Origin: Cupriavidus sp. EM10
GTDB taxonomy: Bacteria; Pseudomonadota; Gammaproteobacteria; Burkholderiales; Burkholderiaceae
Length of the DNA stretch: 64,000 bases
Reading direction: 5' to 3'
NCBI RefSeq assembly: GCF_018729255.1
Contig: NZ_CP076062.1
Coordinates: 186,001-250,000, forward strand
Every line of letters begins with the position of its first letter. Positions within the stretch are counted from its first letter, which is position 1. A program made the translations under genes and the position numbers. Of the stretch, positions 4,555 to 60,430 are shown one piece after another. The notes under the pieces were generated by a model. The model did no database searches and was not told the origin of the DNA. It saw only the letters and a list, made by a program, of their open reading frames with translations.

Positions 4555-4571
4555 GTATGCGTACATGATAC
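4555..4571. promoter_or_regulatory. Weak copy of the CATAACACGTATG-type operator
   Basis: GTATGCGTACATGATAC lies in the short gap between the divergent exonuclease and PAPS-reductase-like genes. It resembles the 13-bp element at 53892-53904 but has several mismatches, so it is a tentative member of the set. Confidence 0.35.
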
Positions 4572-4659
4572 TGCGGAAATGCGAGGGGTTATAGCTTGAT
4601 GAGCTGCATCCCCTACGGGCAAGGCCTCGCATGGCCTCCATCACAGGGAGATTCATAAC

Positions 4660-5868
4660 ATGGACATGTCCGTAGGAACGCAAGAACAAGCAATTCGCTT
4701 CATCACGCCGAAGTTCCTGGAAGGTGCCCCGGCCGGAAAGCCCAATCAGGTTGGTTTGTCGCCAGAGGTCGAATCCATGCTTGCCCGCGATGCGGTGGTG
4801 GCGGTCGGGGTCTCAGGCGGCAAGGATTCGGATGCCTGCGCTATTGCGGTGGCAAGGCACTTGGATCAGATCGGCCACAAGGGACCGCGGCTGCTGGTGC
4901 ATTCCGACCTAGGCCGTATCGAGTGGAAGGATAGCCTGCCGAGCTGCGAGCGGTTGGCACATCGATTGGGTTGGGAACTGCTGGTGGTTCGTCGGCAGGC
5001 TGGCGATATGCTGGACCGCTGGGAAGTACGGTGGCAGAAAAGTGTCTCGCGGTACGAGGACATGTCCTGTGTGAAGCTCATCCTTCCCTGGAGCACGCCG
5101 TCGATGCGATTCTGCACGAGCGAAATGAAGACACACCTCATATCCAGTGCGTTGCGAAAGCGCTTCCCGCAGGGAGACATTCTCAACGTGACGGGGATTC
5201 GCCGACAGGAAAGCAAGAACCGCAGCAAGATGCCGATCTGGGCGCCGAACTCCGGACTGACCCGCAAGAGTGGGGTTGGGATGACGTGGAACGCCATCAT
5301 CGACTGGCCTGTCCAGGACGTGGTGCATGCGATCCATGATGCGGAACTCGAGCTCCATGAGGCTTACACGAAGTACGGTATGTCAAGGGTCTCATGTTCG
5401 TTCTGCATAATGTCATCCGAGGCCGATCTGATAGCCTCCGCGATGTGCGAGGACAACCACGAGCCATACATCCGCATGGTGGAACTGGAGGCAAGGTCGT
5501 CATTTGCCTTCCAGGGGAACCGGTGGTTGTCCGACGTGGCGCCCCACGTCCTGCCGCCGTCGCTGCGAATCCGGGCCGACAAGGCCAAGGCAGTTGCGGC
5601 ACAGCGACAGGTGATAGAGGCCGCGATCCCGGAACATCTACTCTATACGGCTGGTTGGCCGACGTGCCTTCCCTCGCGGGAAGAGGCGGGGCTCCTGGCT
5701 GGTGTTCGCACGGAGGTTTCGGCGCTACTCGGGCTCAACGCCCAGTGCCTCGATGCCACCAGCGTGCTGAACCGTTACGGCAGTTTGCTGGAGCTGAAAG
5801 TGGCCAAGGGCAAAGCTGGCTCGGCGGAGGATACCTATCCCCAGCAGACGGAGCTTTGTTTTGGTTGA
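4660..5868 (+). CDS. PAPS-reductase-like PP-loop protein
   Basis: A 402-residue member of the adenine-nucleotide alpha-hydrolase group related to phosphoadenosine phosphosulfate reductases. The PP-loop VSGGKDSDACA sits at residues 51-61. Later Cys residues occur in MRFCTSEMK and SCSFCIM, as in DndC-like and phage or plasmid relatives, rather than the single C-terminal Cys of CysH. The ribosome site AGGGAG precedes the ATG at 4660; a second ATG two codons on is also possible. Relatives take part in sulfur transfer or phosphorothioate DNA modification, but no dnd or ssp partners are in this window, so the reaction here is unknown. Confidence 0.75.
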   Translation: MDMSVGTQEQAIRFITPKFLEGAPAGKPNQVGLSPEVESMLARDAVVAVGVSGGKDSDACAIAVARHLDQIGHKGPRLLVHSDLGRIEWKDSLPSCERLAHRLGWELLVVRRQAGDMLDRWEVRWQKSVSRYEDMSCVKLILPWSTPSMRFCTSEMKTHLISSALRKRFPQGDILNVTGIRRQESKNRSKMPIWAPNSGLTRKSGVGMTWNAIIDWPVQDVVHAIHDAELELHEAYTKYGMSRVSCSFCIMSSEADLIASAMCEDNHEPYIRMVELEARSSFAFQGNRWLSDVAPHVLPPSLRIRADKAKAVAAQRQVIEAAIPEHLLYTAGWPTCLPSREEAGLLAGVRTEVSALLGLNAQCLDATSVLNRYGSLLELKVAKGKAGSAEDTYPQQTELCFG

Positions 5869-5913
5869 CGTGAAACCAAACCCAATATGGATGTGCGATG
5901 ACAGAGACCGAAT

Positions 5914-6129
5914 TTGACGCCGCTTGTCGGCTTTGCCAAACGCTGGATACAAGGGCCAGTGACGTCGGAGTTCTTGAAGAAGGCCGATGAAAAGCGATTC
6001 ATTTGGATTCGCGACGACTTCCTGACTGTTGAGTGTGTAGTGAGAACCGGCGAGAAGCTGGCTTTCTTGATGCACGTGGCCAAAGTCAAGAAGGAGGTGC
6101 GGGAAACTGGGTACGTGTTCTTCGCGTAG
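5914..6129 (+). CDS. Small hypothetical protein, start uncertain
   Basis: An open frame of about 71 residues with a regular alpha/beta-like sequence (EKRFIWIRDDFLTVECVV) between the PAPS-reductase-like gene and a strong terminator. The only start in this frame is a TTG at 5914. An ATG at 5898 with a sensible opening (MTETEFDAACRL) is in another frame and closes after 30 codons, so a frameshift near 5913 is possible. No known family is recognised. Confidence 0.45.
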   Translation: MTPLVGFAKRWIQGPVTSEFLKKADEKRFIWIRDDFLTVECVVRTGEKLAFLMHVAKVKKEVRETGYVFFA

Positions 6130-6161
6130 TCGGAACGCATCTGTTGCGTGAAACTCCCTCC

Positions 6162-6200
6162 AAGCCCGCTGACGCGACTTAGGTCGTGCAGCGGGCTTTT
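6162..6200 (+). terminator. Rho-independent terminator
   Basis: AAGCCCGCTG pairs with CAGCGGGCTT and is followed by TTCT, downstream of the 5914-6129 gene. Confidence 0.85.
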
Positions 6201-6302
6201 CTCTTTGGCGCTGGCGTGCGCCGGCCGGGCTGGGGGACGCCAACTGGATCGCCCCCCCCAACAGTCGGCTCATCCCACCCGTGCCGAGGTTCGTGCAACC
6301 GC

Positions 6303-6318
6303 GTGTGGTGCATCTCTC
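6303..6318 (+). promoter_or_regulatory. CTGTGNNNCATYYCTC-type element
   Basis: GTGTGGTGCATCTCTC lies 50-65 bases before the 6368 start. It is one of at least nine similar elements in the window and no sigma-70 -10 box is evident nearby. Confidence 0.5.
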
Positions 6319-6367
6319 TCCATCTGATCAATCGCGGCGCCGTCCGCACACCACAAGGAGAAGGGAA

Positions 6368-6736: not shown

Positions 6737-6760
6737 AGCCTATCGATCTCAGGAGAGACT

Positions 6761-7120: not shown

Positions 7121-7129
7121 AGAGCTCCC

Positions 7130-11591: not shown

Positions 11592-12164
11592 ATGAACCAA
11601 TCCGAACTTCGCGACACTTTCCAGAATCTTGGTTTGCCCCTGAGTGACGTACAAGAGCTCGATCCCGACTCGCTGTTTCCCGGCGTATCAAAGTGGCATG
11701 TGTTGATAGAGGCCGTCGAAGGGACGTTGGTGAACCTGATGGCCAATGCAGCAGTATCGGCGGTGTCCAGTCCACTATCGGTGCCAATCGAGTTCCGGCT
11801 GGACGGTAAGCCAAGCAAGCTGGAGGTCTGGAATGTGCGTCTCGTAAGCGGGGTGAGTCTGATCCTCAGTGCGACTGTTGAACCGAAGCCTCTCACCGCT
11901 GGCGAACTCGACATCCGTGCGACGGTAAGTGTGGTTTCGGACCAGACCCTGATGCCGTTTGTTGAGGAGTTGGCGGTAGAGGGGCGACGGATCGAGGCGA
12001 TCGATCGACTAAGGGCGGAGGTCAAAGGTGTTGCGTCAGCCATCGAGAGCCTACTCGATGGTGTAAAGCAGCCTCGCGCGACCTACATCTATCGGGAACG
12101 TCTGGAATGCACGGCGATGGGTTGGGCCAGGCCCGATACACAGCAGCACGCCATCAACTCGTAA
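11592..12164 (+). CDS. Hypothetical protein
   Basis: A 190-residue soluble protein starting MNQSELRDTFQNLGLPLSDV. GGAG overlaps the end of the upstream gene. The middle is beta-rich (WNVRLVSGVSLILSATVEP) and the C-terminal part is helical. A terminator begins 8 bases after the stop. It is the second gene of a two-gene unit. The name of any family is not known to me. Confidence 0.7.
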   Translation: MNQSELRDTFQNLGLPLSDVQELDPDSLFPGVSKWHVLIEAVEGTLVNLMANAAVSAVSSPLSVPIEFRLDGKPSKLEVWNVRLVSGVSLILSATVEPKPLTAGELDIRATVSVVSDQTLMPFVEELAVEGRRIEAIDRLRAEVKGVASAIESLLDGVKQPRATYIYRERLECTAMGWARPDTQQHAINS

Positions 12165-14521: not shown

Positions 14522-14806
14522 CTAGGTAGCAACCCGGTCAACCACTCGGTCCAGGCGCGGTAGAACTGCGCGTTGCACTTGCTCCACTGAATCCACCAGG
14601 TCGAGCATGATATGCACGCCGGCTACCAGGATGTCTGACTTCATCTCTGGGTAGAGCAACATTGCGCGTTCCATACGCTTGTTCACAAGAGCGACCGCCT
14701 GATCGGCCGATTTACCTTCGAGCCGGAGTGCAAGGACCGGGTTTTGGTTCTCTCGCACGCCGAGCGCGTCAAGGCCGATTTCGATAGGGCTGTACTCACG
14801 TTGCAT
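14522..14806 (-). CDS. Hypothetical protein, paralog of 14876-15274
   Basis: A 94-residue soluble protein. Its central segment (MLLYPEMKSDILVAGVHIM) aligns with YPEARAEILLAGLTVV of the adjacent upstream gene, so the two are probably distant duplicates. A near-consensus promoter with TTGACA and TATAAT lies at 14852-14879, and two copies of the 13-bp operator-like element overlap or precede it. Function unknown. Confidence 0.65.
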   Translation of the reverse strand: MQREYSPIEIGLDALGVRENQNPVLALRLEGKSADQAVALVNKRMERAMLLYPEMKSDILVAGVHIMLDLVDSVEQVQRAVLPRLDRVVDRVAT

Positions 14807-14851: not shown

Positions 14852-14879
14852 ATTATACCTACGGGGCAACACGTGTCAA
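14852..14879 (-). promoter_or_regulatory. Promoter of the 14522-14806 gene with operator in the spacer
   Basis: On the minus strand, TTGACA (14879-14874) and TATAAT (14857-14852) are separated by 16 bases. The spacer and -35 box hold GGCAACACGTGTC, a variant of the 13-bp element. A better copy, CATAACACGTACG, lies at 14908-14920. Confidence 0.75.
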
Positions 14880-15274
14880 TAAACCAACCAGGCAGATGGT
14901 TGGGATACATAACACGTACGAGTGACCGGAGGGTAATCCCTCAGGCCGGCTTTGGCGCGACTACAGCAGATGCGATCGCGCGGGAACGGATCAGGCTGTG
15001 ACCTGGACAGCCATCTCCATGCGGGGACGAACTTCCGGATCTCGAGGATGTTCTTGGAGGATTTGCTTACAACGGTGAGGCCTGCCAACAAGATTTCCGC
15101 ACGCGCCTCGGGGTAGTCCTGGAGCGCATTGCTCATACACGTCATTGCTCGCATCCCCGAGCAGCTGGCGTTCACAAACTTGGAGCACTTCGGTTGACCC
15201 TCGGAGTCGAGACATCCCATTGATGCCATCCCGATTGTTGTTGCGAGCGACGTTTCCCCGGCGACTTTGTTCAT
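14876..15274 (-). CDS. Hypothetical protein with conserved Cys residues
   Basis: A 132-residue protein from the ATG at 15274 (MNKVAGETSLATTIGMASMG), preceded by AAGGAAGG. The N-terminal half holds several Cys residues (MGCLDSEGQPKCSKFVNASC). The part YPEARAEILLAGLTVVSK resembles the downstream gene 14522-14806. Its last codons overlap the promoter of that gene. Its own promoter is at 15348-15377. Function unknown. Confidence 0.6.
   Translation of the reverse strand: MNKVAGETSLATTIGMASMGCLDSEGQPKCSKFVNASCSGMRAMTCMSNALQDYPEARAEILLAGLTVVSKSSKNILEIRKFVPAWRWLSRSQPDPFPRDRICCSRAKAGLRDYPPVTRTCYVSQPSAWLVY
14908..14920. promoter_or_regulatory. 13-bp operator-like element
   Basis: CATAACACGTACG differs from the consensus CATAACACGTATG at one base. 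It lies 29 bases upstream of the -35 box of the 14522-14806 promoter, inside the 3' end of the preceding gene. Confidence 0.6.
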
Positions 15275-20299: not shown

Positions 20300-20974
20300 C
20301 TACTGCGCAATCTTGAGATTGATAGCGCGGCTGAGTCCTTCGCTGGCGTTCACCAGCCGCAGATCGTCGAGCGTCAGTTCAGGATTGTAGGAAGCCGCCA
20401 CGGAAGTCGCGCAACTGCGGCCCACCCGGCAAACCTCATACTCCACGACGAGCACGGGCTTCTTTACGGCCGCCGCGGAGTCTGCTGTCGCAGGATCGGT
20501 AGTCGCTGGATTCTGGCTAGTGAGGTCCTTATTCACGTGGTCCAGATTCACCAGCACATCGTTGGCCATATAGCTTGGGTCGGAACAAGTGCCAAAAGCC
20601 AGGCAAAGTCCAATTGAGGCTGCGATTCCAACCCCTGTGCTCAGGCTGACTTTACCGTCTTTGCCTTGTGGTGTGTACTTGTCTGCCTCGCCGGCGTAAA
20701 GCTCGCGCACGGAGTAGCGGATGCCTGGGTCGTCGTTGGAGACGTTGTACCCAGCCGCGGCAATCTTCTGGCTTAGCTTTTCAGCTACTGCCTCTTGTCC
20801 CTCTGGAGCAGTGACCCCAACCTTGCCCGAAAAGGAGCCGAGATTGGTATTCACATGCGCAGCGATAACTCGATAGTCGTCAGTCGCAACAATTGACGGC
20901 TTTGCTGCGAATGCAGGGGAACTGCAGGCCGTGATCAGGACCGCGATGGCGGCGAAAACTCCTCGAAAGTTCAT
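20300..20974 (-). CDS. Predicted lipoprotein
   Basis: A 224-residue protein with the signal MNFRGVFAAIAVLITACSSP; lipobox ITAC with Cys at 17. GGAGGG lies before the ATG at 20974. The mature part has SIVATDDYRVIAAHVNTNLG and a hydrophobic GIAASIGLCLAFG segment. A 13-bp operator-like element lies at 20986-20998, just upstream of the ribosome site, so the gene is probably part of that regulon. Function unknown. Confidence 0.72.
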   Translation of the reverse strand: MNFRGVFAAIAVLITACSSPAFAAKPSIVATDDYRVIAAHVNTNLGSFSGKVGVTAPEGQEAVAEKLSQKIAAAGYNVSNDDPGIRYSVRELYAGEADKYTPQGKDGKVSLSTGVGIAASIGLCLAFGTCSDPSYMANDVLVNLDHVNKDLTSQNPATTDPATADSAAAVKKPVLVVEYEVCRVGRSCATSVAASYNPELTLDDLRLVNASEGLSRAINLKIAQ

Positions 20975-20985
20975 GTGACCCTCCT

Positions 20986-20998
20986 AGTAACACGTATG
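20986..20998. promoter_or_regulatory. 13-bp operator-like element
   Basis: AGTAACACGTATG. On the minus strand it follows a TAATAT box and comes 12 bases before the start codon of the lipoprotein gene, so a bound protein would cover the transcription start region. Confidence 0.65.
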
Positions 20999-21091
20999 TA
21001 TATTATTGCTGGGGTTGATTGTATATGGATTGTCAAGTTTTGGGGAAGTTACCCCGGGATGTGTGATACGACTGCGCTGTGTGAGAGCTCA

Positions 21092-26375: not shown

Positions 26376-26965
26376 CTAGCCGAACATGTCGCCAAGTTTT
26401 TCCAGTGCTTCGAGCGCAACGGGGTCGAAGCTCTGGGGGCTCGCCGGCGCCGGTTGCGTGGCAGGGACGGTTCCAGGGTTTGCGGCAACGGCAATGGCAG
26501 GGGGCACGATCGTGGCAGGCGTTTCCGCTTCCTCCACACCCTGCGCGAGAAGTGGTTGGATGGGCTCGACCACGGTTTCGCGCAAGGGTGGTGGTTGCTC
26601 CGCCGGCGCCACTGCTACCGGAGACGGGGTAGCAGGACGGGCAGCCGGCCGGGCTGAAATTGCGCGGGGCTTCAGCACCCTGGCAGAGCGTCCCTTGGCG
26701 CCTCGGCGCACCTGTTTGTCGTGCGGTGCGGATTCGATGAGACCCCGGGACCAGCCAGTGCCTCCTCAATGGCGTCATCCAATGTTCCTGCATCCCGGTG
26801 CTTGATGAACCACTGATACAGGACGCCCCTGATGAGAGGGGTTTCGGTCCGGTATGGCATTTCTGCGAGGAACTCAAGAGCCCCAGGGCAGGTTGCCTCC
26901 GCGATCACCAAGTTGATGCGCCGCTCCGGTTCGTCTGGGTCGAACACCCGGATGAGCTTAGGCAT
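26376..26965 (-). CDS. ParR/StbB-like plasmid partition adaptor, one frameshift
   Basis: The gene follows parM directly. From the ATG at 26965 it opens MPKLIRVFDPDEPERRINLV, and the segment FLAEMPYRTETPLIRGVLYQ fits a ribbon-helix-helix-like DNA-binding start. Adding one G to the C4/G4 run at 26743-26746 joins it to a long Pro/Ala-rich tail that ends ALEALEKLGDMFG, giving about 196 residues. The layout, DNA-binding start and flexible tail ending in a short helix, is that of ParR proteins that cap ParM filaments. The assignment rests on position and architecture rather than a diagnostic motif. Confidence 0.6.
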
Positions 26966-27985
26966 CTACGGTTTCCTGTTGGCTCTGCCGCTTCATTGCT
27001 TGGCGCAGCGCCACGCCCATGCCGTAACGGCCGAAGCCATTCGCTACTGACATGCGGGGTTGTCAAGGAGAATGCAGTGCGACCACTTCTTCTTGATTTC
27101 TTCGTAGAGCAGCGGAGCGCCGCCGCCGGCCAGGATCACGCCGTGCAACTTCCGCACGTCCATGGACAGCAAGGAGTCGGCCTTGGCGTTGATCTTCTGG
27201 GCAACGTGCGAGACCGCCTTTGCAACTTCTTCTGAGATGTCGATTTCTTGACCAAACTGCAAAATCGACTTGGTCCGGATCGCGGTTTCGCACTCGATGA
27301 GATTCGAGTGAATCCCGCGGCCATCGAGAATGCGTACCAGATGCTCCGCGGCGAAATTCAGCCCTTCGCATGTGCCGGCGCCGCGTTCAACGTACTGCCC
27401 TTCGAGCATCAGTAGAAAGTCGGTCGTGAAGTGGCCGACTTCGATGACAGCCCAACTCTTCGTCCGATCGGATGCGTCCTTGATATGACTCCGGATCGGG
27501 AGCCCCTTCTCGTCCAAGTAGAAGTCGCAATACGCGCCCATGGGTTGGGGCAGGACGCGCATCTCGGCCTTGACGATACGTTCCGTGACCTCTTTGAGTC
27601 GAGCTTGCTGGGAAGAGAACAAGTTCGCCGGGGTACCGATCACGAGAAGCGGTTTGTCGAGGCCGGGAACCCCCATGGCTTCAAAGCGCTTCATGGTCGA
27701 GGCGACCAACGCCTGGTACTCGGGGGTGTTGATCCAGTCGTTCGACAGACCGGCATTGGCGCCGGGACTGCCCTGGAGCCGAGCCGTGTCGCCCGTGAAG
27801 AACTGCTTTCCCTCGATTTCGACGGTTTCGATGGCGGCTCGCCGCGCGGTAGTCTCGTCTGAGATCCCGATGGCAGGCGAGACGATGGAGGGGAAGGTGA
27901 GGTGGTAGGACTCGCCTTGGGCAAAGGCTACGGCCTTGACGGCGCTTCGGCCCACGTCGAGGCCAATGATGGTTTGGGTAAGCAT
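26958..27985 (-). CDS. parM: ParM/StbA-like actin-type plasmid segregation ATPase, frameshifted near its end
   Basis: Actin-fold motifs are clear: phosphate-1 loop IIGLDVGRSAVK, phosphate-2 VIEVGHFTTDFLL and adenosine motif VILAGGGAPLL. The protein polymerises to push plasmid copies apart, together with the ParR-like product and a centromere. The ATG at 27985 follows GTGAGA. The written frame stops at 27044 after LLDNPACQ; one extra C near 27055 continues it as MSVANGFGRYGMGVALRQAM, which matches the conserved ParM C-terminus (DP-FANVRG-YG). It ends four codons into the next gene. The promoter at 28111-28139 carries the 13-bp operator in its spacer. Confidence 0.88.
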
Positions 27986-28110: not shown

Positions 28111-28139
28111 ATTTTAGAATACATAACACGTATTGACAA
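28111..28139 (-). promoter_or_regulatory. parM promoter with operator in the spacer
   Basis: On the minus strand TTGTCA and TAAAAT are 17 bases apart. The spacer is largely CATAACACGTATT (28122-28134), a one-mismatch copy of the 13-bp element. Binding there would block polymerase. Confidence 0.75.
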
Positions 28140-28153
28140 GGCGACTGTAGCGA

Positions 28154-28743
28154 ATGGAGAATTCGCCTCCGGGGGACGTTTACGGAGTTCCGTACTCAAC
28201 CCCCAAAGGACGCTTAATACATGGTACGTACTCAACCCCCGAGATCGACGATTTGCAGTTGCCCTCACCGCCGCCCGAAAAGCGGTCGAGGAGACGGAGA
28301 ACCTTATCCGAACCATTGATACAACCCTCGAACGAATCGACCAGCTGATGTACGTGATGCAGCCGTTTCAGTCCGGCCGAATCGGCATAAAGCGGTCGCT
28401 AAGTAAGCGGAAATTGCGCTGGGAAGTGCGAATCTTTCGGCAGCTCCGTAGCCGCAAGTGGGTCTCCTCGTTTGCGAGCCACAAGGGGTTGCGGCGCCGC
28501 GTGAAGCGTTCCCGGGAGTGGGAGGCAAACTACAAGTTCCTGCAGTTGCTCTGCGATCGAGTCACCCTGCTGTTTGAGTTGCGGTCGCAAGCGGTGGACC
28601 GGCTCTGGCGTTTCTCGCATGGATCGACCCGTTCCACCAGGGCCCGAGAGGCTGCGATAAGCGACACGGTCGCCCTAGTGGACGGGCTGCTGGAGCGGAT
28701 CGAGGCACGGTTCGAAGGCGATATGGAACTTGAGGACGAATAG
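28154..28743 (+). CDS. Hypothetical protein, start and frame uncertain
   Basis: From about 28250 to the stop the frame is clearly coding: LTAARKAVEETENLIRTIDT, then a basic segment (KRSLSKRKLRWEVRIF) and an acidic end. No usual start codon exists in this frame upstream. The ATG at 28154 (MENSPPG) comes into frame if one G is added to the G5 run at 28171-28175. An internal start at the ATG near 28347 is the other choice. A 14-bp direct repeat, CGTACTCAACCCCC, occurs at 28191 and 28227. The protein is helical and highly basic; function unknown. Confidence 0.58.
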
Positions 28744-28803: not shown

Positions 28804-30279
28804 TTATGGGTAGCGAGTGTCTCGGCCGGGCCGGATATTGGGCGAAGATTGGATTGAGGCGGACGTAGAGGAGATAGCTGCCAGGCGGAGGTCCTGTGGG
28901 GAGTCGGGATTTCTGCCACGCGGGGTATTGGGCGGAGGGAGTCCTGGGCTCTGTGCGATGGGAGACGGGACTGGCTCTGGCGGGATCTCGGGTTTGGCCT
29001 GTTCTGCGGCTTTGCGTAGTGCGCTGTTCTGCGGGCGGGTGGATGGGCTGGTTGTCTCACTCTGCCGACCGGTGGTCGTTCTCTCGCCTGCGCGGGTGTC
29101 CGCCTTGTTCCCTTGTTCTCTCTCTGTCCGATTGGGCGGCCGGTGGTCCTGTGCTTGTTGCGGTGGGGCGGGGAGGTAGCCGGCGATGGCTTGGTGCGGA
29201 GTGAGCTTGGGCGCGGAGTGAGAACTTCGGTTGGCGGTGGCTTGGGTTTGGTGTCCCTCGGCGGCCCGTGGTCCGCCGGAGCCTTTGGTGTCGCCGGCGC
29301 ATCAGCGCGGGCCCGTGAGGGGCTATGGTTCTGCCGACGGGATAACTATTTGTCCTGCCGGGGCTCGTTCTGGTGGTGTGCGGGCTGCGCTTGTGCGCCC
29401 TCCTGCGTCGGGGTTGTTGCGTCGCCGTGAGCATAACCATTTGTCCTCTTCCTTCCTTGTGTCGCCGCGGGATCTCGCTCCCTGTTCTTCCTGAGAGCCG
29501 GGTGCGCTGCTGCTGTCCTGGTGCCGGGGCGGGATTGGGCTGCTCCTTCTTGCCCGGTCATCTCTCGCCGGAACTGTGGATGGGATCGAATGGATCTAAT
29601 GGATGAAGGGGAGGGGCGGCCGGTGTCGTTCTGCCGATGGCGTGTCGGGGAGCCGGGTGGATCTGTCGGCGGGGCGGAGGTCCTAGGCTGGGTTGGTTGT
29701 TCTGCTGGCGTGGGAATGGTGCTGGTGGTGGATGGTTGTGGCGCTGGGTGGCTGGTTCTGTCGGCGGGGGATCGGGTGGAGCGGCGTTGTGCTGGCGGGA
29801 GACTGATGGTGTTGGTTTTGAGAGTGGCGGCGGTGCGGTGGCGGTGTCAGGCGGAGTGAGAAGTTTCGCTGGCGATGGTGCGAGGGAAGTCGGGTATGAG
29901 CTCGGATTGAGTGGGGCTGGAGTGTCGGCAGGCGATGGCGTGGGTGGAGTCGGGTATGGGCGGGGCGGGGCGGGAGATTGGCTGGCGATGGCGTGTTGCG
30001 GTGTGGTTGTTGGGCAGGCGGTTGTTTTGGCCGTGTGGGGGAGGGCTGGCGTACCTGGTGCCGTAGCCGCCGGCGCCGTGGGGGCGACGCCCGGCGAAGC
30101 CGGGCTGGGGTGTTGCCCCGGGGTAAATGTTTGGCCGGAGGGCTTCTCTTGGGCGCTCCCCTGTGGGTAAATGGTTGCCCCTGCTACCGGGTTCTATGAC
30201 CGGCGCCGGTGAGTAAATGCTTGGCCGTATCTGTTTCGCTGGTCTGGGTGCGGTGTATGTTGGTGTTGCTATACCCATG
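28804..30279. other. G-rich gene-poor region with degenerate repeats
   Basis: The plus strand is rich in G and T over about 1.5 kb. Open frames on both strands are low-complexity and lack ribosome sites. Recurrent short units include TCTGCCGA, GGCGGCCGGTGGTC (near 29064, 29136, 29259) and GGCGATGG with AGTCGGGTATG (near 29875 and 29933). Iteron-like repeats lie at 29341, 29433 and 30121-30349. Such skewed, repeat-rich, gene-free DNA beside a partition operon suits an origin, a centromere or oriT. No initiator gene is adjacent. Confidence 0.55.
29341..29446 (+). repeat. Two diverged iteron-like repeats
   Basis: GATAACTATTTGTCC (29341-29355) and ATAACCATTTGTCC (29433-29446), 92 bases apart. 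They resemble the four repeats at 30121-30349 but differ at the 3' end. Confidence 0.45.
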
Positions 30280-30349
30280 TGTAACACGTATGCATAATCT
30301 GCTTGATTGATTTAAGTACTGTGCGTATGATGGGTATAAATGGTTGGCC
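30121..30349 (+). repeat. Iteron-like direct repeats
   Basis: Four copies close to RTAAATGNTTGGCC occur at 30121-30135, 30164-30178, 30210-30225 and 30333-30349. All are in the same orientation, the first three about 45 bases apart. Direct repeats of this size and spacing are typical of plasmid initiator or centromere-protein sites. Confidence 0.6.
30280..30292. promoter_or_regulatory. 13-bp operator-like element
   Basis: TGTAACACGTATG, followed by CATAATC. It lies between the iteron-like repeats and about 77 bases before the 30369 gene. Confidence 0.6.
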
Positions 30350-30673: not shown

Positions 30674-32473
30674 ATGAGCAAGGCTACGCACGAACAACTT
30701 ACCGCGATCAACAGCGCCGTCCGTCGCCTGGTGGTCCAGGCCTGCCCGGGTGCCGGCAAGACGTTCACCCTGAGGGAGTACGCACTGGTGCGTCCCTCGG
30801 AGCGCATCCTGTACCTCACCTACACGAAGTCTCTCCAGACCGAAGCCGAGGGCAAGTTCCCCCAGAACGTCGAATGCCGCACCACTCATTCCCTTGCGTG
30901 GTCGTTCGGCCGTCGCTTCAAGGACGCCGGTAAGCTGGGCGACCTGCGCCCGAGCGACTTCGCCCGCGCCTTCGGCATCGAGATCGGCTTTGCCAGTATC
31001 CTGGTGACCACTGTCACGAGCTTTCTCTTCTCCGCGGATACCGACTTCGAACCGCACCATGTGCCGGACACGATCGCCGAGGCAGATGTCGCCGAGACCC
31101 TGAAGTGGGGCAGGCTCGCTTGGGAGGCCATGCGGGATCTCGGCCGCAAGAACGTTCCCATGCCCCATGACGGCTATCTCAAGCTGTTCCAGCTTTCGAA
31201 GCCGGACCTGTCGCGTCGCTACGATCGCATCTTGTTCGACGAAGGTCAGGACGCCAACCCGGTCACGACCTCGATCGTTCTTGCCCAGAATTGCCCTGTG
31301 GTGATCGTCGGCGACCGGTATCAGGCGATCTTTGCATTCCGGGGTGCCGTCAATGCCATGGACATGATCCAACCGGATGAAACGGTCTACCTCACCCAGA
31401 GCCATCGCTTCGGCCCTGGCATTGCCCGGCTGGCCACGATGCTCCTCTCCGCGTTCCGCGGCGAAGAGCGACCTGTGCACAGTGCCTTCCCGGATCGGCC
31501 GACTGGCTACACGGTCGACGTGTCCAAGCCGTACGCGGTCATCGGCCGCACGAACGCCAAGCTGTTCGACAAGGCTGTCGCCATGCTGGGCAACAAGCGA
31601 CTGCACTTTGTCGGTGGGCTCAGTAATTACCCATTTGACAAGTTGGTGGACGTTTGGAGCCTGATGAGCGGCCAGCCGGCCGCCGTCAAGGACCAGCTGC
31701 TCAAGACCTTTGGTTCGCTGGAGAAGCTCGAGGAGTACGCGACGGGCGTTGACGACAAGGAAATTCTCTCCCTGATCGGTGTGGTGAAGGAGTACCGCAG
31801 CGCGATCCCATCGCTGGTCGAGAGGATCAAGGCGGAGGCAGTGGAACAAGCAGAGCACGCTGACGTTCTGCTCTCGACGGCCCATCGTGCGAAGGGTCTC
31901 GAATTCAGCCAGGTACTGCTGCTCGACGACTTCGAAGACTTCGTCACGGCAAATGGCGAGCTGCTGACTCTGGATACGCCCGAACTGGTCCAGGAACTGC
32001 ACCTGCTGTTCGTGGCCCTCACCCGCGCCGAGGACGTTATCGAGCTCAACGCCCAGATGCAGGACATCATCGCGATCCTAGGGGATCGCGTGCCTGAAGC
32101 TCAGCCAACCCCGGGCGAGAGGAGCACCGAACAAGTGGGGGAGCAGCTTGGCCAGATTCCGGGTTTTGATTACGTGCCTGTTGTGTATACGTGTGATGTA
32201 GCGGAAAATGCCACGCGTGAACAAGATGCCCCGATGGTCGCGCTGGCGCAAGTGCCGGTTGGTGCTGGCACTGACATCGAGAAATCGGTGGAACTGGCGA
32301 TCCTCCGGCAAGGCCTCCTTCACGTTCCGCGGCTGGCGCAAGAGGTTGGCGTGAGCCGCGAGATAATGGCGGATGTGATCGTCGAGATGATCCGGAAGGG
32401 TCTGCTGGCCGAGTCGCTCTTCCTGGGTAGCCCGGAGGTAGTCAGCCGTCTGCGGGTGGCGGTGGCGGCGTGA
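30674..32473 (+). CDS. UvrD/Fbh1-like superfamily 1 helicase
   Basis: A 599-residue SF1A helicase. Motif I is ACPGAGKT (23-30), Ia includes ILYLTYTKS, motif II is FDEGQDANP (188-196), III is GDRYQAIFAFRGA (213-225), V is STAHRAKGLE (401-410) and VI is LFVALTRAED (445-454). The THSLAWSFG element (71-79) resembles Fbh1-type helicases. It should unwind DNA 3' to 5' and may remove recombinase filaments. The C-terminal 130 residues are unrelated to the core. The ATG at 30674 has AAAGGGG upstream. A partial 13-bp element at 32186 lies inside the coding region. Confidence 0.9.
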   Translation: MSKATHEQLTAINSAVRRLVVQACPGAGKTFTLREYALVRPSERILYLTYTKSLQTEAEGKFPQNVECRTTHSLAWSFGRRFKDAGKLGDLRPSDFARAFGIEIGFASILVTTVTSFLFSADTDFEPHHVPDTIAEADVAETLKWGRLAWEAMRDLGRKNVPMPHDGYLKLFQLSKPDLSRRYDRILFDEGQDANPVTTSIVLAQNCPVVIVGDRYQAIFAFRGAVNAMDMIQPDETVYLTQSHRFGPGIARLATMLLSAFRGEERPVHSAFPDRPTGYTVDVSKPYAVIGRTNAKLFDKAVAMLGNKRLHFVGGLSNYPFDKLVDVWSLMSGQPAAVKDQLLKTFGSLEKLEEYATGVDDKEILSLIGVVKEYRSAIPSLVERIKAEAVEQAEHADVLLSTAHRAKGLEFSQVLLLDDFEDFVTANGELLTLDTPELVQELHLLFVALTRAEDVIELNAQMQDIIAILGDRVPEAQPTPGERSTEQVGEQLGQIPGFDYVPVVYTCDVAENATREQDAPMVALAQVPVGAGTDIEKSVELAILRQGLLHVPRLAQEVGVSREIMADVIVEMIRKGLLAESLFLGSPEVVSRLRVAVAA

Positions 32474-36269: not shown

Positions 36270-36311
36270 TTGACAACATTTACCGCTCGCGTATTATACA
36301 TACGTGTTATT
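36270..36311 (+). promoter_or_regulatory. Promoter of the 36330 unit with operator at the start site
   Basis: TTGACA (36270-36275) and TATTAT (36292-36297) are 16 bases apart. The 13-bp element in reverse orientation, CATACGTGTTATT (36299-36311), directly follows the -10 box and would cover the transcription start. Confidence 0.8.
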
Positions 36312-36329
36312 ATTCGATTGTCCTGGAGC

Positions 36330-36563
36330 ATGACGATGAGTGCAGAGACGGGACGCCCGAAGCCTCCCCAGTTCGCTACCAAGGAGGCTGAGCTTCGCCA
36401 CAGGGAATATGCCTGCCTCGCCAGGATCGAGAGCCTGCAACGCAAGCTTACTGAAGGGAGTGTCATTCCGGTACCGGAACTGCGCTCGTATCTGGCTACT
36501 GTGAAACTGGAGTTGAACAAGGTGCGTGCGAGCATGGCAGAAGAGGGGATCGCGGCCCTGTGA
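36330..36563 (+). CDS. Hypothetical coiled-coil protein
   Basis: A 77-residue helical protein starting MTMSAETGRPKPPQFATKEA, with CTGGAG before the ATG at 36330. Heptad-like Leu spacing (RIESLQRKLTEG, TVKLELNKVRASMA) suggests a short coiled coil. First gene of the unit driven by the operator-bearing promoter at 36270-36311. Function unknown. Confidence 0.62.
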   Translation: MTMSAETGRPKPPQFATKEAELRHREYACLARIESLQRKLTEGSVIPVPELRSYLATVKLELNKVRASMAEEGIAAL

Positions 36564-39494: not shown

Positions 39495-39551
39495 CAAGCC
39501 ACACAGTCCGATAAACTACCGAAGTCCGCTAACTGATTCCCCTTTCAGCGT

Positions 39552-40373
39552 ATGCATACGTGTAATGTAGCGAAGAATGGTCAACAGGCGGCGCCGGTGC
39601 AGGGTCCAGTGGATCTGGATGCGACCAGGCGCGATGCCGTCAATCTCCCGCCCGAGTGGCAAAGCACGGTGATGGCCCTGGCGGAAGAACTGGCTGGGGC
39701 ACGAGCCTTGGTCGAGAACTCCGCCAAGGATGCCGCTGACGCCGCCGCGTTTCGTCGAATCAACACGCCGGAAGTGGCGCACTTTGTGCACGCGTCGTAC
39801 AACGAGGCAATGCACCAGCGGGTGCGTTGGGGGCCAGCGCACGACATGGCCAAGTCCAACGAGGACTGGTATGCGCTCCTCGGATACCTCGCCGGCAAGG
39901 CGCAACAGCCTGACATCCCGCTCGATAAGCGCCTCCACCATGTCATCGCGACGTCCGGGGCCTGCTTTAACTGGCACGGGGTCCTGACGGGCAGCTGGTC
40001 GGACCGTGAAGCCGCCGATGCCCTCGAGCGAGCGCGGACCCAACCCCGAGGCCCCATCCAACACTCCCTGAAATGTGACAGTGAAGTCTTCAACGCCGTT
40101 GCGGACGGGCGGAAGACGCATGAGATCCGGTTCGACGACCGCGATTACAGGCTAGGTGACGTACTGCTCCTCAAGGAGACCGTCTACTCCGCTGCGGAAA
40201 TGCAGACCGGAGCACCGGTGCTCTCCACAGGGCAGGAGATCTGGCGAGTCGTCTCGCACGTGCTGACGGGATACGGCCTTTTCCCGGGCTGGGTTTGCCT
40301 CTCGCTTGAGTCACCGAACACAAAGCGGGCCGCACTGGGCCCGGACACCGCAGCGAATTCACCGGAGGCTTGA
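39552..40373 (+). CDS. DUF3850-domain protein with helical N-terminal part
   Basis: A 273-residue protein. The C-terminal 85 residues form a DUF3850 (ASCH/PUA-like) domain: HSLKCDSEVFNAVADGRKTH, then EIRFDDRDYRLGDVLLLKE, typical of a small RNA-binding fold common in phages and plasmids. The N-terminal part holds AHFVHASYNEAMHQRVRWGP, a helical phage-mosaic module. The ATG at 39552 lies within the 13-bp operator-like element, so the true start may be further in; an ATG at 39579 comes into frame if one G is added. Operator placement suggests repression of this unit. Confidence 0.72.
   Translation: MHTCNVAKNGQQAAPVQGPVDLDATRRDAVNLPPEWQSTVMALAEELAGARALVENSAKDAADAAAFRRINTPEVAHFVHASYNEAMHQRVRWGPAHDMAKSNEDWYALLGYLAGKAQQPDIPLDKRLHHVIATSGACFNWHGVLTGSWSDREAADALERARTQPRGPIQHSLKCDSEVFNAVADGRKTHEIRFDDRDYRLGDVLLLKETVYSAAEMQTGAPVLSTGQEIWRVVSHVLTGYGLFPGWVCLSLESPNTKRAALGPDTAANSPEA
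39555..39567. promoter_or_regulatory. 13-bp operator-like element
   Basis: CATACGTGTAATG, the reverse orientation of the consensus with one mismatch, at the start of the DUF3850-like gene. TGTAGCGAA follows, as also near 28145. Confidence 0.55.
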
Positions 40374-47862: not shown

Positions 47863-47868
47863 AATGCG

Positions 47869-47907
47869 CATAACGCGTATTGATAAGCCGCGTGTCTGTT
47901 TGTTATA
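47869..47907 (+). promoter_or_regulatory. Promoter with 13-bp operator-like element
   Basis: CATAACGCGTATT (47869-47881) overlaps a TTGATA -35 box (47880-47885), followed 17 bases later by TTATAG. It drives the 48038 unit. Confidence 0.65.
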
Positions 47908-48037
47908 GTCAAGTCACGCGCGGATTTCGGCGTGATATTCGTCGCTGCCGGTACGTGTGGGTTTGAAGTCGTTCAAGATCCCCGGCTTTTGTCCGTTTAC
48001 CGGAATTGGGGCATACCAAATACTGCGAAGGACGGGC

Positions 48038-53754: not shown

Positions 53755-53865
53755 GTGAGCGTCACCGCCGACGAGTTGCTGGAGGGTTTGAACCCGGTCG
53801 ACGCGGACCCGCGCTCGGCCCGCAGCGGCTGCCGGCCACCTTCGCACGATTTGCGGGCATCTTGA
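53755..53865 (+). pseudogene. Fragment duplicated from the 3' end of the 59004-59633 gene
   Basis: The frame reads VSVTADELLEGLNPVDADPR, against LSITANELLQGLNPVDADPL at the end of the 59004-59633 product. DNA identity is high through GGGTTTGAACCCGGTCGACG. No upstream part of the gene is present; a TAG lies two codons before. It is therefore a truncated copy. Confidence 0.7.
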
Positions 53866-53904
53866 CAAATAGCACCAAATCGAACAAGATGCATAACATG
53901 TATG
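53862..53904 (+). promoter_or_regulatory. Promoter with operator-like element, copy of 58893-58935
   Basis: TTGACA (53862-53867), 17 bases, CAAGAT (53885-53890), then CATAACATGTATG (53892-53904). The order matches the promoter of the 58680-58870 gene, of which this is a duplicated copy. It may now drive the 54026 gene. Confidence 0.65.
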
Positions 53905-53918
53905 TATATGCGCGGAGT

Positions 53919-53999
53919 ATAGCAATAGCGATTCAGGCGGCGGCCGTGCAAGCAATCATTGATGGCGAGTTGTGCGGAGTGCGAAGACAATGTTGGTAG
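53919..53999 (+). pseudogene. Fragment duplicated from the 5' end of the 58680-58870 gene
   Basis: The frame reads IAIAIQAAAVQAIIDGEL against MAMAAAAVQANIDDEF. DNA shows GTGCAAGCAA-CATTGATG-CGAGTT in both. The start codon has become ATA and the frame ends at 53999. A decayed copy. Confidence 0.68.
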
Positions 54000-54025: not shown

Positions 54026-54499
54026 ATGACAGGACCTTACCCGGCCGATCGCCGGCCCAATGCCACAACAATTCTGACCCATTGGGAGACGCTGCATCAC
54101 CAGAACTCCGTGCCCGTGACGCGCCATCAAGAGGCGATCACCATGGCGCTGGATATCGCTGGGAATGTCGATGATCCGGAACTCCTGCCAGGAATGCTGA
54201 TGATGCTGCTCTCAGAGGTCCCGGCCGAGCCGCTGCTGGGTGCCAAGCCGCAGCAAATTGGGTCGGTGCTGGGTCTGACGAGCCTGGGATATTTGCTCAG
54301 TCGACAGGACCATGCGGAAACGTTGCGGCGCATGTTGAGCGCAGGCGATGGGGTGGTCCTCCTCCGGATTACCGGTGATCTCGACCGGCATCATGCGAAT
54401 GTCGAGATCTTCGAAGATTGGGAGGGCTATCAGCGATTCTTGGTGCCAATCCTGCGCCGCGGAAAGCTTCAGAAGGGCGACGGGAGTACGCTGCTTTAA
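54026..54499 (+). CDS. Hypothetical protein
   Basis: A 157-residue alpha/beta protein starting MTGPYPADRRPNATTILTHW, with GAGG before the ATG. It has Leu-rich helices in the middle and ends NVEIFEDWEGYQRFLVPILR. The upstream duplicated promoter with the operator-like element may control it. Function unknown. Confidence 0.65.
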   Translation: MTGPYPADRRPNATTILTHWETLHHQNSVPVTRHQEAITMALDIAGNVDDPELLPGMLMMLLSEVPAEPLLGAKPQQIGSVLGLTSLGYLLSRQDHAETLRRMLSAGDGVVLLRITGDLDRHHANVEIFEDWEGYQRFLVPILRRGKLQKGDGSTLL

Positions 54500-57942: not shown

Positions 57943-58019
57943 TGCATAAACTCCACCGGCTACCGGCCGATCATCACGGGGTGCTCGTGCGCCATATCTT
58001 TTTCGATTGTCTAGCCGCC

Positions 58020-58232
58020 CTAGATGGTGCCCTTCTTGTAAGCATCGATTTCGACGTGATAGGTCGAATCTTGGCCGAACCGATCGAGGTAGGCCAGCGG
58101 GAGTACACCTCTTTTGACCATCTCCACGGGAGACGGAACATCCTTGCCGGGGCCCGTGCCGATGAACTTCGTGATGTGCTCCAGATCTGCAGCCGGAAGA
58201 GTGACAGCGTTCGTGGGCTCGGTGTGGGTCAT
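58020..58232 (-). CDS. Small hypothetical protein
   Basis: A 70-residue protein starting MTHTEPTNAVTLPAADLEHI, with AAGGA before the ATG. Its start region overlaps the end of the upstream membrane gene. Soluble, mixed composition (YLDRFGQDSTYHVEIDAYKK). Function unknown. Confidence 0.6.
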   Translation of the reverse strand: MTHTEPTNAVTLPAADLEHITKFIGTGPGKDVPSPVEMVKRGVLPLAYLDRFGQDSTYHVEIDAYKKGTI

Positions 58233-58663: not shown

Positions 58664-58679
58664 TGGCTTCTCTCCCAGA

Positions 58680-58870
58680 TCATCCGCATTGGTGACACGC
58701 GATCGCCTTGGCGAGGCCGGCGATCTTGAAGAGATCGAGACCATCGCGATCTGCGTGGGCGAGGACGTCGTGAGCGTGCTGCAGTGACCAATGGCCCCCG
58801 CGATTAGCGCGTGATAGTTGTGGAACTCGTCATCAATGTTTGCTTGCACCGCGGCAGCAGCCATCGCCAT
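58680..58870 (-). CDS. Small hypothetical protein, one frameshift
   Basis: From the ATG at 58870: MAMAAAAVQANIDDEFHNYH. Adding one G to the C5/G5 run at 58796-58800 continues as HWSLQHAHDVLAHADRDGLD and KIAGLAKAIACHQCG, about 64 residues. A decayed copy of its 5' end lies at 53919-53999. It has its own operator-bearing promoter. Function unknown. Confidence 0.55.
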
Positions 58871-58892
58871 GATTCGACACTCCGAAATTATA

Positions 58893-58935
58893 AGTACGTG
58901 TTATGGAGTTTGTGCGATTCACGTATGAGTGTCAA
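58893..58935 (-). promoter_or_regulatory. Promoter with 13-bp operator-like element
   Basis: On the minus strand: TTGACA (58935-58930), 17 bases, CAAACT (58912-58907), then CATAACACGTACT (58905-58893). Same order as the duplicated copy at 53862-53904. Confidence 0.68.
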
Positions 58936-59003
58936 GTCCGGGCTGTTCGTGGGGCAGTGGCCGACCTTCTGGCGCTGGGTTCGCTCGGGCAAGGATGCGC
59001 AGG

Positions 59004-59633
59004 CTAGGGCGCGTTACGTGCTCGGAGAGCTCTTGAAACGAGCGGGTCCGCGTCGACCGGGTTCAAACCCTGTAGCAACTCGTTGGCCGTGATGCTCAGG
59101 TTCTGCAGAATGGTATCCGCCTCCCATTCCGGTGTGCGGATCTGGAGGAGGTGCGCCGAGGCCGCGCCGATCGCAATGCCGAGGGCGTGCTTCGCCGCGG
59201 CAGGATCAAATACGATCCTGAGGGAGCTCCCATGTCGCGTTACCTTGGGTTTGGCGATCAAGCAGCAGATCCAGGTGAGCGACAGAGTAGGGTGTAGCAG
59301 TGCGAACCACCAGGGTACCCTCGACGTGAGATCCTGGATGAAGGCCCTGACATCCTCGATCTCATAGAGTTCGCGAGAGTCGGCGTCGTAGCCGCCGATC
59401 CCGACGAGCAGTTTGGACGCGTTGGCTGAGATGTCCTCTGCAGTCCGGCCGAGCTTCCTGAATATCTCAGCCAGCTCTAATGCATCGCGAGAAACAACAG
59501 AGCGGTTGTCAATCTGGCAGACGAGAATCTTGCCGTGCGTTGGGTCTTCGATCCGGAGGAGGAGTGTCTGTTCGGCTGTCATGTGTGTTGGCGCGGGAAG
59601 AGAGTTGAGTAGGGGAGGGGGGCGGCTGTTCAC
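59004..59633 (-). CDS. Partner gene of the AbiEi-like antitoxin, unknown family
   Basis: A 209-residue protein whose GTG start at 59633 overlaps the AbiEi-like stop (GTGA); an ATG at 59582 (MTAEQTLLLRIEDPTHGKIL) is also possible. It has two hydrophobic segments (WWFALLHPTLSLTWICCLIA and AKHALGIAIGAASAHLL) and no nucleotidyltransferase motif, so it is not the usual AbiEii toxin. The end (ITANELLQGLNPVDADP) is duplicated at 53755. It may be the effector of this pair, or an unrelated cotranscribed gene. Confidence 0.62.
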   Translation of the reverse strand: MNSRPPPLLNSLPAPTHMTAEQTLLLRIEDPTHGKILVCQIDNRSVVSRDALELAEIFRKLGRTAEDISANASKLLVGIGGYDADSRELYEIEDVRAFIQDLTSRVPWWFALLHPTLSLTWICCLIAKPKVTRHGSSLRIVFDPAAAKHALGIAIGAASAHLLQIRTPEWEADTILQNLSITANELLQGLNPVDADPLVSRALRARNAP

Positions 59634-60358
59634 GGTTTAAGCGTGATCCGCACATCCTTCATTTTGTTTGACCACCGCTTTCCGCGGCTGCGCTTGTCGA
59701 CATGCGGCTGGAGGTCCTCGCCCCATGCAAACCCGCTTTCCTCGCCCAAGGTTCTCGCAAGCTTGAGAACCTTGATTCGCGTGCACTGCGCCATGAACGA
59801 GTGGAGGACCGGTGCTCGTATGCTCCGCATTGTGGCGAGGATGTTCACTACCTCTTCGAGCGTTTGGCCTTTGCCGACGTCGCTGACGAGCTCGAGGAAC
59901 GCACGCTCAGGGACGGACACGAGGACCGATGGATTGCCGGCGGGTATTGGCTTCAGGCCCTCGCTGTATGGGAGCGATTCTTCGAACAGGTCAGTCGTTT
60001 GATACGAATACCTGAGATGGTCTTTGACCCAGTCCGGGAACTTGTATGAGTCCTGTCCCCAAAGTACGACCGTCGGGCGGAAGGCGACTTTATGGCGGAC
60101 ACCCTGCCAATCCAGAGCGGTTTTTCCACCTACGTGGAGTCCCCTTATGCGCCGGCTCAAGAACGCTATGACACCTTCTGTGGTTGGGTGGTCGCCTCTC
60201 AGGAGATAGGCGCCCTTCCCGAGCCGCTGGAGCCAGGCGGCGCTCACCAGGTAGCTAAGGGCGCGTTCGGATATGCCCATATCGCGGAGCATTTCTGTGT
60301 CCATCGGCTGACCGCGAGGGGCTTGATCCATCAGGTTCTGGAGTGGCTCATTGCGCAT
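59630..60358 (-). CDS. AbiEi-like antitoxin / transcriptional regulator
   Basis: A 242-residue protein. The N-terminal winged helix includes LRDMGISERALSYLVSAAWL followed by QRLGKGAYLLRGDH, and the family signature RGLHVGGKTALDWQGV lies near residues 73-88. In type IV systems AbiEi represses its own operon and blocks the toxin AbiEii. Here the downstream coupled gene is not AbiEii. The ATG at 60358 has only a weak ribosome site. An element distantly related to the 13-bp operator lies about 50 bases upstream. Confidence 0.78.
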   Translation of the reverse strand: MRNEPLQNLMDQAPRGQPMDTEMLRDMGISERALSYLVSAAWLQRLGKGAYLLRGDHPTTEGVIAFLSRRIRGLHVGGKTALDWQGVRHKVAFRPTVVLWGQDSYKFPDWVKDHLRYSYQTTDLFEESLPYSEGLKPIPAGNPSVLVSVPERAFLELVSDVGKGQTLEEVVNILATMRSIRAPVLHSFMAQCTRIKVLKLARTLGEESGFAWGEDLQPHVDKRSRGKRWSNKMKDVRITLKP

Positions 60359-60405
60359 TCTGACGAGAGTGAAGGCGTTGTAATTTGGAAGATACCTCGG
60401 TAAAA

Positions 60406-60430
60406 GTGTATGTTAATACGTAAAAATAAC
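60406..60430. promoter_or_regulatory. AT-rich palindromic element before the AbiEi-like gene
   Basis: GTGTATGTTAATACGTAAAA with flanking AT-rich bases contains TTACGTATTAACATAC on the minus strand. It resembles the CATAACACGTATG set loosely and is well placed for autoregulation by the AbiEi-like protein. Confidence 0.4.

Follow-up and report, generated by a model that had tools for sequence, protein, structure and literature searches.

A recurrent 13-bp element on a pMOL30-like Cupriavidus plasmid is half of a plasmid-wide dyad operator with an Xre-type protein as candidate repressor

The window, the whole stretch of DNA analyzed here, comprises 64,000 nucleotides (positions 186001–250000) of contig C3 (327,127 bp) of Cupriavidus sp. 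EM10, whose 6.66 Mb genome consists of four contigs. C3 is a pMOL30-like Cupriavidus plasmid of 327 kb, which corresponds to 5% of the genome. The subject of this analysis is a 13-bp element that an earlier note on this DNA had described at about ten promoters of the window and assigned to an undescribed regulon under one repressor. Relatives of the window in the plasmid collection are six Cupriavidus records, including NZ_CP026546.1, NZ_CP043439.1, NZ_CP037902.1 and pMOL30; CP026546, CP043439 and pMOL30 are typed to replicon cluster 332, and CP043439 encodes an F-type transfer system, ParAB, a Rep protein and ParM. According to the accessible part of one study, pMOL30 shares a backbone of ~60 kb with pBVIE01 (PMC2864759). 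In the window, Rfam gives nothing at gathering scores and ARAGORN detects no tRNA. Genes were called with a home-made caller and are not curated.

All nine 13-bp copies that had been called good (starting at 14908, 20986, 28122, 30280, 36299, 39555, 47869, 53892 and 58893) are present in the window. With up to two mismatches, the window contains 10 matches to CATAACACGTATG, compared with 0.50 on average and never more than 3 in 100 dinucleotide-preserving shuffles of the window. The tenth match, absent from the earlier list, is located at 32186–32198 inside a uvrD-like reading frame. At the same stringency, the whole genome contains 46 matches, 28 of which are on C3, and the backwards pattern gives 23. 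A stricter 17-bp form, ATAACACGTAYNNATAM, has 21 matches with one mismatch allowed (control, 1), all of them on C3. The spread over the host chromosomes that would have spoken against the proposal is thus not seen. A chance origin of the element is rejected by the shuffle and reversed-sequence controls, and a chromosomal regulon by the confinement of the strict matches to C3.

A weight matrix built from C3 and extended outwards revealed that the conservation reaches past 13 bp. The full element is a ~32-bp dyad, ATACATAACACGTAYNNRTAMKNNNNNTGTAT, and the 13-mer accounts for most of one of its halves; among the possible centres tested, position 13.5 gives the best palindrome. The dyad is laid out as ATACATAACACGTAY-NN-RTAMK, five loose bases and TGTAT, with its centre between the two middle Ns; it is asymmetric, with a strong left half, to which the 13-mer belongs, and a loose right half ending in TGTAT. 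In the matrix scans, the reversed sequence served as control, and the site threshold on C3 was a score above 14. The scan of the complete replicon, which the earlier note had proposed, yields 46 sites on C3 versus 1 in the reversed sequence. The same final matrix finds 44 versus 3 on CP043439, 63 versus 4 on pBVIE01, 46 versus 5 on pSTY and 44 versus 1 on RPME01, which gives a range of 44–63 sites per plasmid on five large plasmids; the smaller pMOL30 has 18 (control, 4), in line with the backbone genes that are absent from it. A first-pass matrix made from C3 only found 58, 45 and 40 sites in pBVIE01, pSTY and RPME01, respectively (controls, 6, 3 and 1). When no matrix is used, ACGTGTTA is the top over-represented 8-mer in C3, CP043439, pSTY, pBVIE01 and RPME01, and it ranks 18th among the 8-mers of pMOL30. 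It is absent from the nine top 8-mers listed for EbN1p1, THAF12 and Pfung, which are plasmids without the operator, and the de novo 8-mers offer no substitute operator in these three.

Two side observations concern the words found in these scans. In the plasmid of Halomonas sp. THAF12 (L113–L121), the word CCCACCTA occurs 40 times versus 15 expected, as an over-represented element unrelated to the one studied here. Near the MoxR/VWA genes of some Pseudomonas plasmids (L045:7747, 8925, 10786; L178:7910, 9765), A-rich runs come after weaker operator-like sequences (for example gatgCCTAACACGCGAGtagaa), which are perhaps operators fused to terminators.

Within the window, three putative operators lie over the −35 box or the spacer of a promoter (promoters by our own scoring, site scores from the final matrix, strand given for the strong half). 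The operator at 28119–28150 (+; score 34.2) covers the −35 box and spacer of the parM promoter TTGTCA-17-TAAAAT (− strand, 28139 to 28111), and it also covers those of a + strand promoter, TTGACA-18-GAGAAT (28133–28162). Its target is a parM/stbA-type actin-like partition gene (26955–27985, low end approximate, − strand), which is identified by the Pfam domains ALP_N/MreB-like_C and by the annotation of NZ_CP026546.1. A frameshift near the 3′ end sets parM of this assembly apart from that of NZ_CP026546.1, and the aligned 42 kb contain 32 gap openings at 99.8% identity; the frameshift looks like an assembly error rather than decay. The operator at 30277–30308 (+; 28.5) holds at its right edge the −35 box of TTGATT-17-TATGAT (30303–30331) and precedes a small gene and a uvrD-like helicase gene; an operator upstream of uvrD is also found in pBVIE01, pSTY and RPME01. 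The operator at 47866–47897 (+; 22.2) covers the −35 box of TTGATA-18-TATAGT (47880–47909).

Three further operators, whose copies had been assigned to start sites, are located at the −10 box or start region. The operator at 36283–36314 (−; 33.3) covers the −10 box and start region of TTGACA-16-TATTAT (36270–36297), 22 bp before a small gene starting at 36336 (+). The operator at 53889–53920 (+; 30.2) begins at the end of the −10 box of TTGACA-17-CAAGAT (53862–53890), ahead of a gene at 54026–54499 (+), and that at 58877–58908 (−; 33.7) lies over the end of the −10 box and the start region of TTGACA-17-CAAACT (− strand, 58935 to 58907). The operator at 14905–14936 (+; 23.4), with no promoter above our scoring threshold nearby, is ~100 bp upstream of a gene for a 94-residue protein (14522–14806, −) and also precedes the orthologs of that gene in pBVIE01, pSTY and RPME01 (scores 16.1, 22.1 and 22.4). 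The operator at 20983–21014 (+; 19.9) is directly upstream of a gene for a 224-residue protein (20300–20974, −), with promoter-like boxes on both strands, and recurs before relatives of this gene in pBVIE01 (35% identical) and pSTY (30%). The operator at 39539–39570 (−; 28.3) is directly upstream of a DUF3850-domain gene, whose longest frame is 39552–40373 (+) and whose annotated start in relatives is downstream of the site. An operator-like site at 32170–32201 (−; 25.9), also present in NZ_CP043439.1 at 26682, lies inside the uvrD-like frame, and its function there is doubtful.

The three copies that the earlier note listed as variants are weak. Those at 4555–4571 (score 8.6) and 60406–60430 (score 10.2) are indistinguishable from chance, since C3 has 4 sites versus 8 in the control in the score bin 8–10 and 5 versus 7 in the bin 10–12. 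At 14865–14877 (+), a weak half-site 43 bp from the 14908 copy, the best nearby score is 6.7, and the reversed C3 again exceeds C3 in that bin (21 versus 18). This variant alone may be real, because its core, AACACGTGTCAATAA, recurs in pMOL30, pBVIE01 and C. grimmiae plasmid p2.

Over the whole of C3, 43 of the 46 sites are intergenic, although coding sequence makes up 72% of the plasmid. When the 199 sites on C3, pBVIE01, pSTY and RPME01 are taken together, only 10 are in coding sequence and 5 in convergent gaps, compared with 68 in divergent gaps; among tandem genes, the motif strand runs along the gene at 34 sites and against it at 82. The equal rate in coding and control DNA that would have refuted a regulon did not occur. 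The promoter linkage proposed for the window also holds: a pair of σ70-like boxes is found within 60 bp of eight of the nine sites, compared with 32% of random intergenic stretches of the same length, by our own scoring and with some boxes overlapping the operator itself. Near the sites, both strands show an enrichment of TATAAT-like and TTGACA-like boxes, at no constant distance; those overlapping the operator are not counted as evidence.

This arrangement bears on two alternatives to a repressor. A long conserved two-block sequence that is nearly always located in gaps could itself be a promoter read by an alternative sigma factor or a plasmid RNA polymerase, which we regard as hardly credible: the sites have no fixed orientation and point either way with respect to the downstream gene (82 opposite, 34 same and 68 divergent), and, in the sections available of a study of pMOL30, start-site-mapped promoters are TTGACA-like/TAnAAT and the plasmid encodes no sigma factor (PMC7563307). 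Recognition by an activator resembling AcaCD or FlhDC, which would turn on transfer genes, is very unlikely. Many of the operators precede transfer and DNA-processing operons, and activator sites precede transfer operons in other elements of the MPF_F type; the sites, however, occur on both strands and may precede, overlap or follow a promoter, with no fixed offset to the boxes, and several of these promoters already have near-consensus boxes. Such a spread of positions is tolerated better by a repressor than by an activator.

The proposal of a single-repressor regulon is supported in an amended form, in which the unit is the ~32-bp dyad rather than the 13-mer, the regulon is wider than the window, and the best candidate for the repressor is encoded ~50 kb outside the window. 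This candidate is a 207-residue Xre/Cro-type protein (C3:134920–135543, − strand). Its gene occupies a conserved place between the DUF3150/MoxR/VWA genes and an operon of a hypothetical gene and a topoisomerase gene; in pMOL30, the topoisomerase side of the locus has been replaced. The topoisomerase-facing operator is strong (scores 21.8–27.6) in five non-Cupriavidus plasmids with flanks. An operator at the regulator's own promoter scores 23.0 in pMOL30, where it overlaps TTGAAT-16-TAGAAT (read by eye), 17.7 in both pBVIE01 and C. grimmiae, and 13.6 in pSTY. Of 11 regulator loci found in a collection of 84,980 genomes, 10 have an operator with a score of 17 or more within ~900 bp upstream of the match; the loci were collected with a pattern that contained YWNS and thus favors proteins with that helix, and one of them (L173, G060) appears to come from the same genome as G045.

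The predicted fold of the candidate is that of an Xre helix-turn-helix (HTH) protein. The AlphaFold2 model, which is of the pMOL30 version (94% identical), has a mean predicted local distance difference test (pLDDT) score of 77; residues 61–207 are mostly confident (~90–94 over 61–120) and residues 1–60 are not. The predicted helices 63–76, 81–87, 91–99, 109–119 and 123–129 form an all-helical HTH with a recognition helix. Foldseek ranks the integrative model 9a7f first (E = 7.7e-4); DdrO, ClgR and C.BclI come next (E = 0.004–0.008), and then HigA and Stl; most of the neighbors listed are Xre-type proteins, and the whole-model TM-score is ~0.3. PF12844 is precomputed on four relatives of the candidate, and a PDB profile search with its relatives gives no match. 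The protein has no NCBIfam match and no ParB domain (Pfam), and the Pfam and NCBIfam scans show no KorA-family match, no direct comparison with KorA having been made. The N-terminal tail is rich in Lys, Ala and Pro, above all in the Pseudomonas versions.

Relatives of the candidate are encoded on 39 plasmid records, and the regulator region was compared on 11 of these plus CP043439. Seven plasmids whose regulators are at least 41% identical (pMOL30, pBVIE01, C. grimmiae p2, pSTY, P. koreensis p3, RPME01 and pKF715B), together with CP043439, contain 10–44 matches to NAACACGTANNNATAM with one mismatch, versus 0–3 in the control. The plasmids of P. fungorum, EbN1 (plasmid 1), Halomonas THAF12 and Allochromatium (pAt1), whose regulators are 24–34% identical, contain 2, 0, 0 and 0 matches (control at most 1). 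The putative regulon extends over the rest of the plasmid and over related plasmids in Beta- and Gammaproteobacteria.

The sites are retained in front of the same genes. Where a C3 gene has a site within 400 bp upstream and an ortholog on another plasmid, the ortholog shares the operator in 22 of 27 cases in pBVIE01, 18 of 22 in pSTY and 14 of 19 in RPME01; orthologs of C3 genes without an operator have one in 10 of 123, 11 of 67 and 8 of 87 cases, respectively. The same comparison for three plasmids without the operator gives 0/5, 1/11 and 0/3. The retained targets include genes of the orthologous F-type transfer apparatus, parM, uvrD and topoisomerase genes, and even the distances are similar: in C3, pBVIE01, pSTY and RPME01, the operator is 43, 42, 39 and 35 bp from traE and 148, 147, 135 and 170 bp from parM. 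By annotation, the neighbors of the sites in CP043439 include the genes DsbC-TraW-TraU-TrbC, OmpA-TraL, TraE and LepB-TraF-TraH-TraG, genes for a lytic transglycosylase, ParM, a UvrD-like helicase, an EAL-domain protein, a DNA methyltransferase and the regulator, and the topoisomerase side. No site above a score of 11 is found at its catabolic genes (~54–76 kb) or mer genes (~233–236.5 kb). The sequences show a plasmid-wide, promoter-linked and evolutionarily retained operator; binding, repression and the sign of regulation are inferred.

One part of C3 differs from the rest. Positions 1–80000 contain no match to the 13-mer (up to two mismatches), versus 28 in the other 247 kb, and a single matrix site (score 15.8) before a gene at 11708, which suggests that the first 80 kb are an accessory or co-integrated segment largely outside the regulon.

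Regulator and operator co-occur in genome collections. Among 60 genomes of the genus Cupriavidus, which include the source genome, at least six strict operator matches are found in three (21, 21 and 6), and these are exactly the genomes with a regulator of at least 94% identity; of the remainder, one genome has a 24%-identical relative and one match, and another has one match and no regulator. Among 249 genomes of the genus Pseudomonas, the regulator is present in two, and no other genome exceeds three exact operator matches (these two have 7 and 5); both were reached via the regulator, so that the comparison is a test of the other 247 rather than a discovery. Many Pseudomonas chromosomes carry a single match to AACACGTACGTATAC (for example at G266:C1:5780662), probably the same conserved site in each case and without relation to the plasmid regulon.

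The recognition helix also tracks the operator. Helix 91–99 holds YWNS, followed by GNR, and these residues are invariant in all eight aligned proteins from operator-bearing plasmids and replaced by others in all four from plasmids without the operator. In two Noviherbaspirillum contigs (L180, L181; G067:C18, G068:C7), the protein is 43–48% identical and reads YWNS...GHR, and the operators before the same genes are altered, often with AACAGG for AACACG. Position 8 is C in 4 of 15 Noviherbaspirillum sites (a first-pass list with 2 control matches) versus 175 of 199 on the four plasmids, and selection with a C-type matrix works against such a shift; the near-twin contig has 9 sites, 3 of them with C at position 8, with 3 control matches. 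When the matrix was iterated on the Noviherbaspirillum contig, it moved into AT-rich DNA, where the control gave nearly as many matches (58 versus 46 in the control), so that the shift is read from the first-pass list. GHR also occurs in other relatives among database proteins, and the protein at locus L183 reads YWHS...GHR. Regulator and operators may have changed specificity together in Noviherbaspirillum. The specificity evidence is suggestive, not conclusive, that the Xre protein reads this operator.

Other proteins could in principle bind the sites. Of nine annotated DNA-binding proteins of CP043439, compared by tblastn (E up to 1e-3), only the Xre protein (at least 43% identical) and ParB (23% in RPME01) are common to C3, pMOL30, pBVIE01, pSTY and RPME01. 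The others considered were a 323-residue HTH_3 protein, missing from C3, pBVIE01, pSTY and RPME01; a 298-residue CI-like protein and an annotated 252-residue 'transcriptional regulator', both missing from pMOL30 and RPME01; H-NS, missing from pMOL30 and pSTY; and two HU proteins and Rep, missing from pBVIE01, pSTY and RPME01.

ParB, whose gene is present on the plasmid, might bind the sites as dispersed centromere/operator sites and repress in the manner of KorB, the ParB-type silencer of RK2 as portrayed in the available portions of two papers (PMC11790492, PMC5577506). One conserved operator is indeed located between the convergent genes parB and rep (C3 172388, NZ_CP043439.1:329711, pMOL30:3185), where no gene was called. 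However, RPME01 keeps 44 operators with a ParB only 23–24% identical (ParA, 29%) and an Xre protein 43% identical with an intact recognition helix, so that ParB is not conserved along with the sites as a ParB-parS pair would be; no ParB relative is found on the Noviherbaspirillum contig, which is not known to be a closed plasmid; and parB has no close upstream operator in the C3 list. We consider the ParB explanation slightly less probable still than an activator. The operator in the parB-rep gap might point to a hidden gene there, or to a connection with the centromere or origin.

It is also quite unlikely that the operator, real and plasmid-wide as it is, is bound by another, unrecognized backbone protein. 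Relatives of 66 C3 proteins are present on pBVIE01, pSTY and RPME01 alike, many of them of unknown function and most outside the domain scan; in the 20 conserved proteins scanned with Pfam, no DNA-binding transcription-factor domain is found above cut-off, with one weak Whirly match. Among the proteins examined, four features come together only for the Xre gene: its product has a DNA-binding fold, its promoter region contains operators, it co-occurs with the operator, and its recognition helix tracks the operator. That the Xre protein is the reader of the operator is strongly suggested.

Several points weigh against this assignment. Co-occurrence cannot separate the Xre protein from the ~65 other conserved backbone proteins, and besides the Xre protein the domain scan covered 20 of these. 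pMOL30 lacks the operator on the topoisomerase side and keeps only that at the regulator's own promoter, which elsewhere is mostly weaker than the topoisomerase-facing one, scoring 5.7 in P. koreensis and missing from RPME01. L183 has the regulator, and no operator of the usual type was found in its 6 kb. Whole-genome operator counts (one mismatch) exceed the control in 8 of 11 regulator genomes, slightly so in G062 (30 versus 26), and are below the control in G067, G068 and G070. The Pfam HTH_19 match of the candidate (22.4 bits) is below the curated cut-off of 30.2, and the bias of the tandem sites towards the opposite orientation (82 versus 34) is unexplained by a symmetric operator.

With these points included, we assign a probability of roughly 0.78 to the reading in which a plasmid-wide, autoregulated repressor regulon has the element as its operator and the 207-residue Xre protein as its binder. 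A dimer, or two dimers or a tetramer on the four contact zones of the dyad, would cover the operator and block σ70 RNA polymerase, including at the regulator's own promoter, and expression of the transfer, partition and DNA-metabolism genes would stay low and co-ordinated. In a newly entered cell that lacks the protein, a brief period of expression might follow until the protein accumulates, by analogy only. The Xre protein could, in addition, be a nucleoid-like organizer that bridges distant operators, silences a megaplasmid domain and couples it to partition, with the operator in the parB-rep gap as the would-be anchor. The ~45 sites over ~240 kb, the long dyads suited to tetramers and the disordered N-terminal tail, which is rich in Lys, Ala and Pro and resembles histone H1 in the Pseudomonas versions, are the points in favor of such a role, which we consider unlikely.

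Conjugative megaplasmids of the pMOL30/pBVIE01/pSTY type carry metal resistance and the degradation of solvents and aromatic compounds, and in Pseudomonas clinical resistance genes. The open-licence literature, in the parts accessible to us and with subscription papers and supplements outside its scope, yielded no account of this operator or regulator or of the control of the backbone genes of these megaplasmids, and its papers on the pMOL30/pBVIE01 backbone no such operator or global regulator. A single operator with a single candidate repressor provides a directly testable control circuit, and the operator is a sequence signature for spotting backbone genes among 'hypothetical proteins'. Noviherbaspirillum offers a natural case in which regulator and operators may have changed specificity together.

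Among known systems, the megaplasmid backbone of pMOL30, pBVIE01, pSTY and pTTS12 carries the putative regulon (pTTS12 being outside this comparison). DdrO of Deinococcus, the C proteins and ClgR are among the nearest solved folds of the HTH part of the candidate; unlike it, they have chromosomal or restriction functions, and the resemblance comes with weak fold E-values (at least 0.004) and no PDB profile match. The C proteins of restriction systems bind long dyads as two dimers. On IncP-1 plasmids (RK2), the repressors KorA, KorB, KorC and TrbA act at many operators to co-ordinate replication, partition and transfer, as outlined in the accessible part of PMC4889941. The arrangement described here resembles the Kor network in its many operators dispersed over the backbone promoters of one plasmid; it differs in that the candidate is of the Xre type, lacks a ParB domain and is encoded beside a topoisomerase/DUF3150 module. 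The operator is unrelated to the Kor operators. SetR of SXT, Rco of pLS20 and ImmR are Xre/Cro-CI repressors of mobile elements whose operators number one or a few and lie close to a master switch. The candidate is like them in its HTH fold class, in its divergent promoter region and in the presumed repression of transfer genes, but its putative operators are dispersed over dozens of sites.

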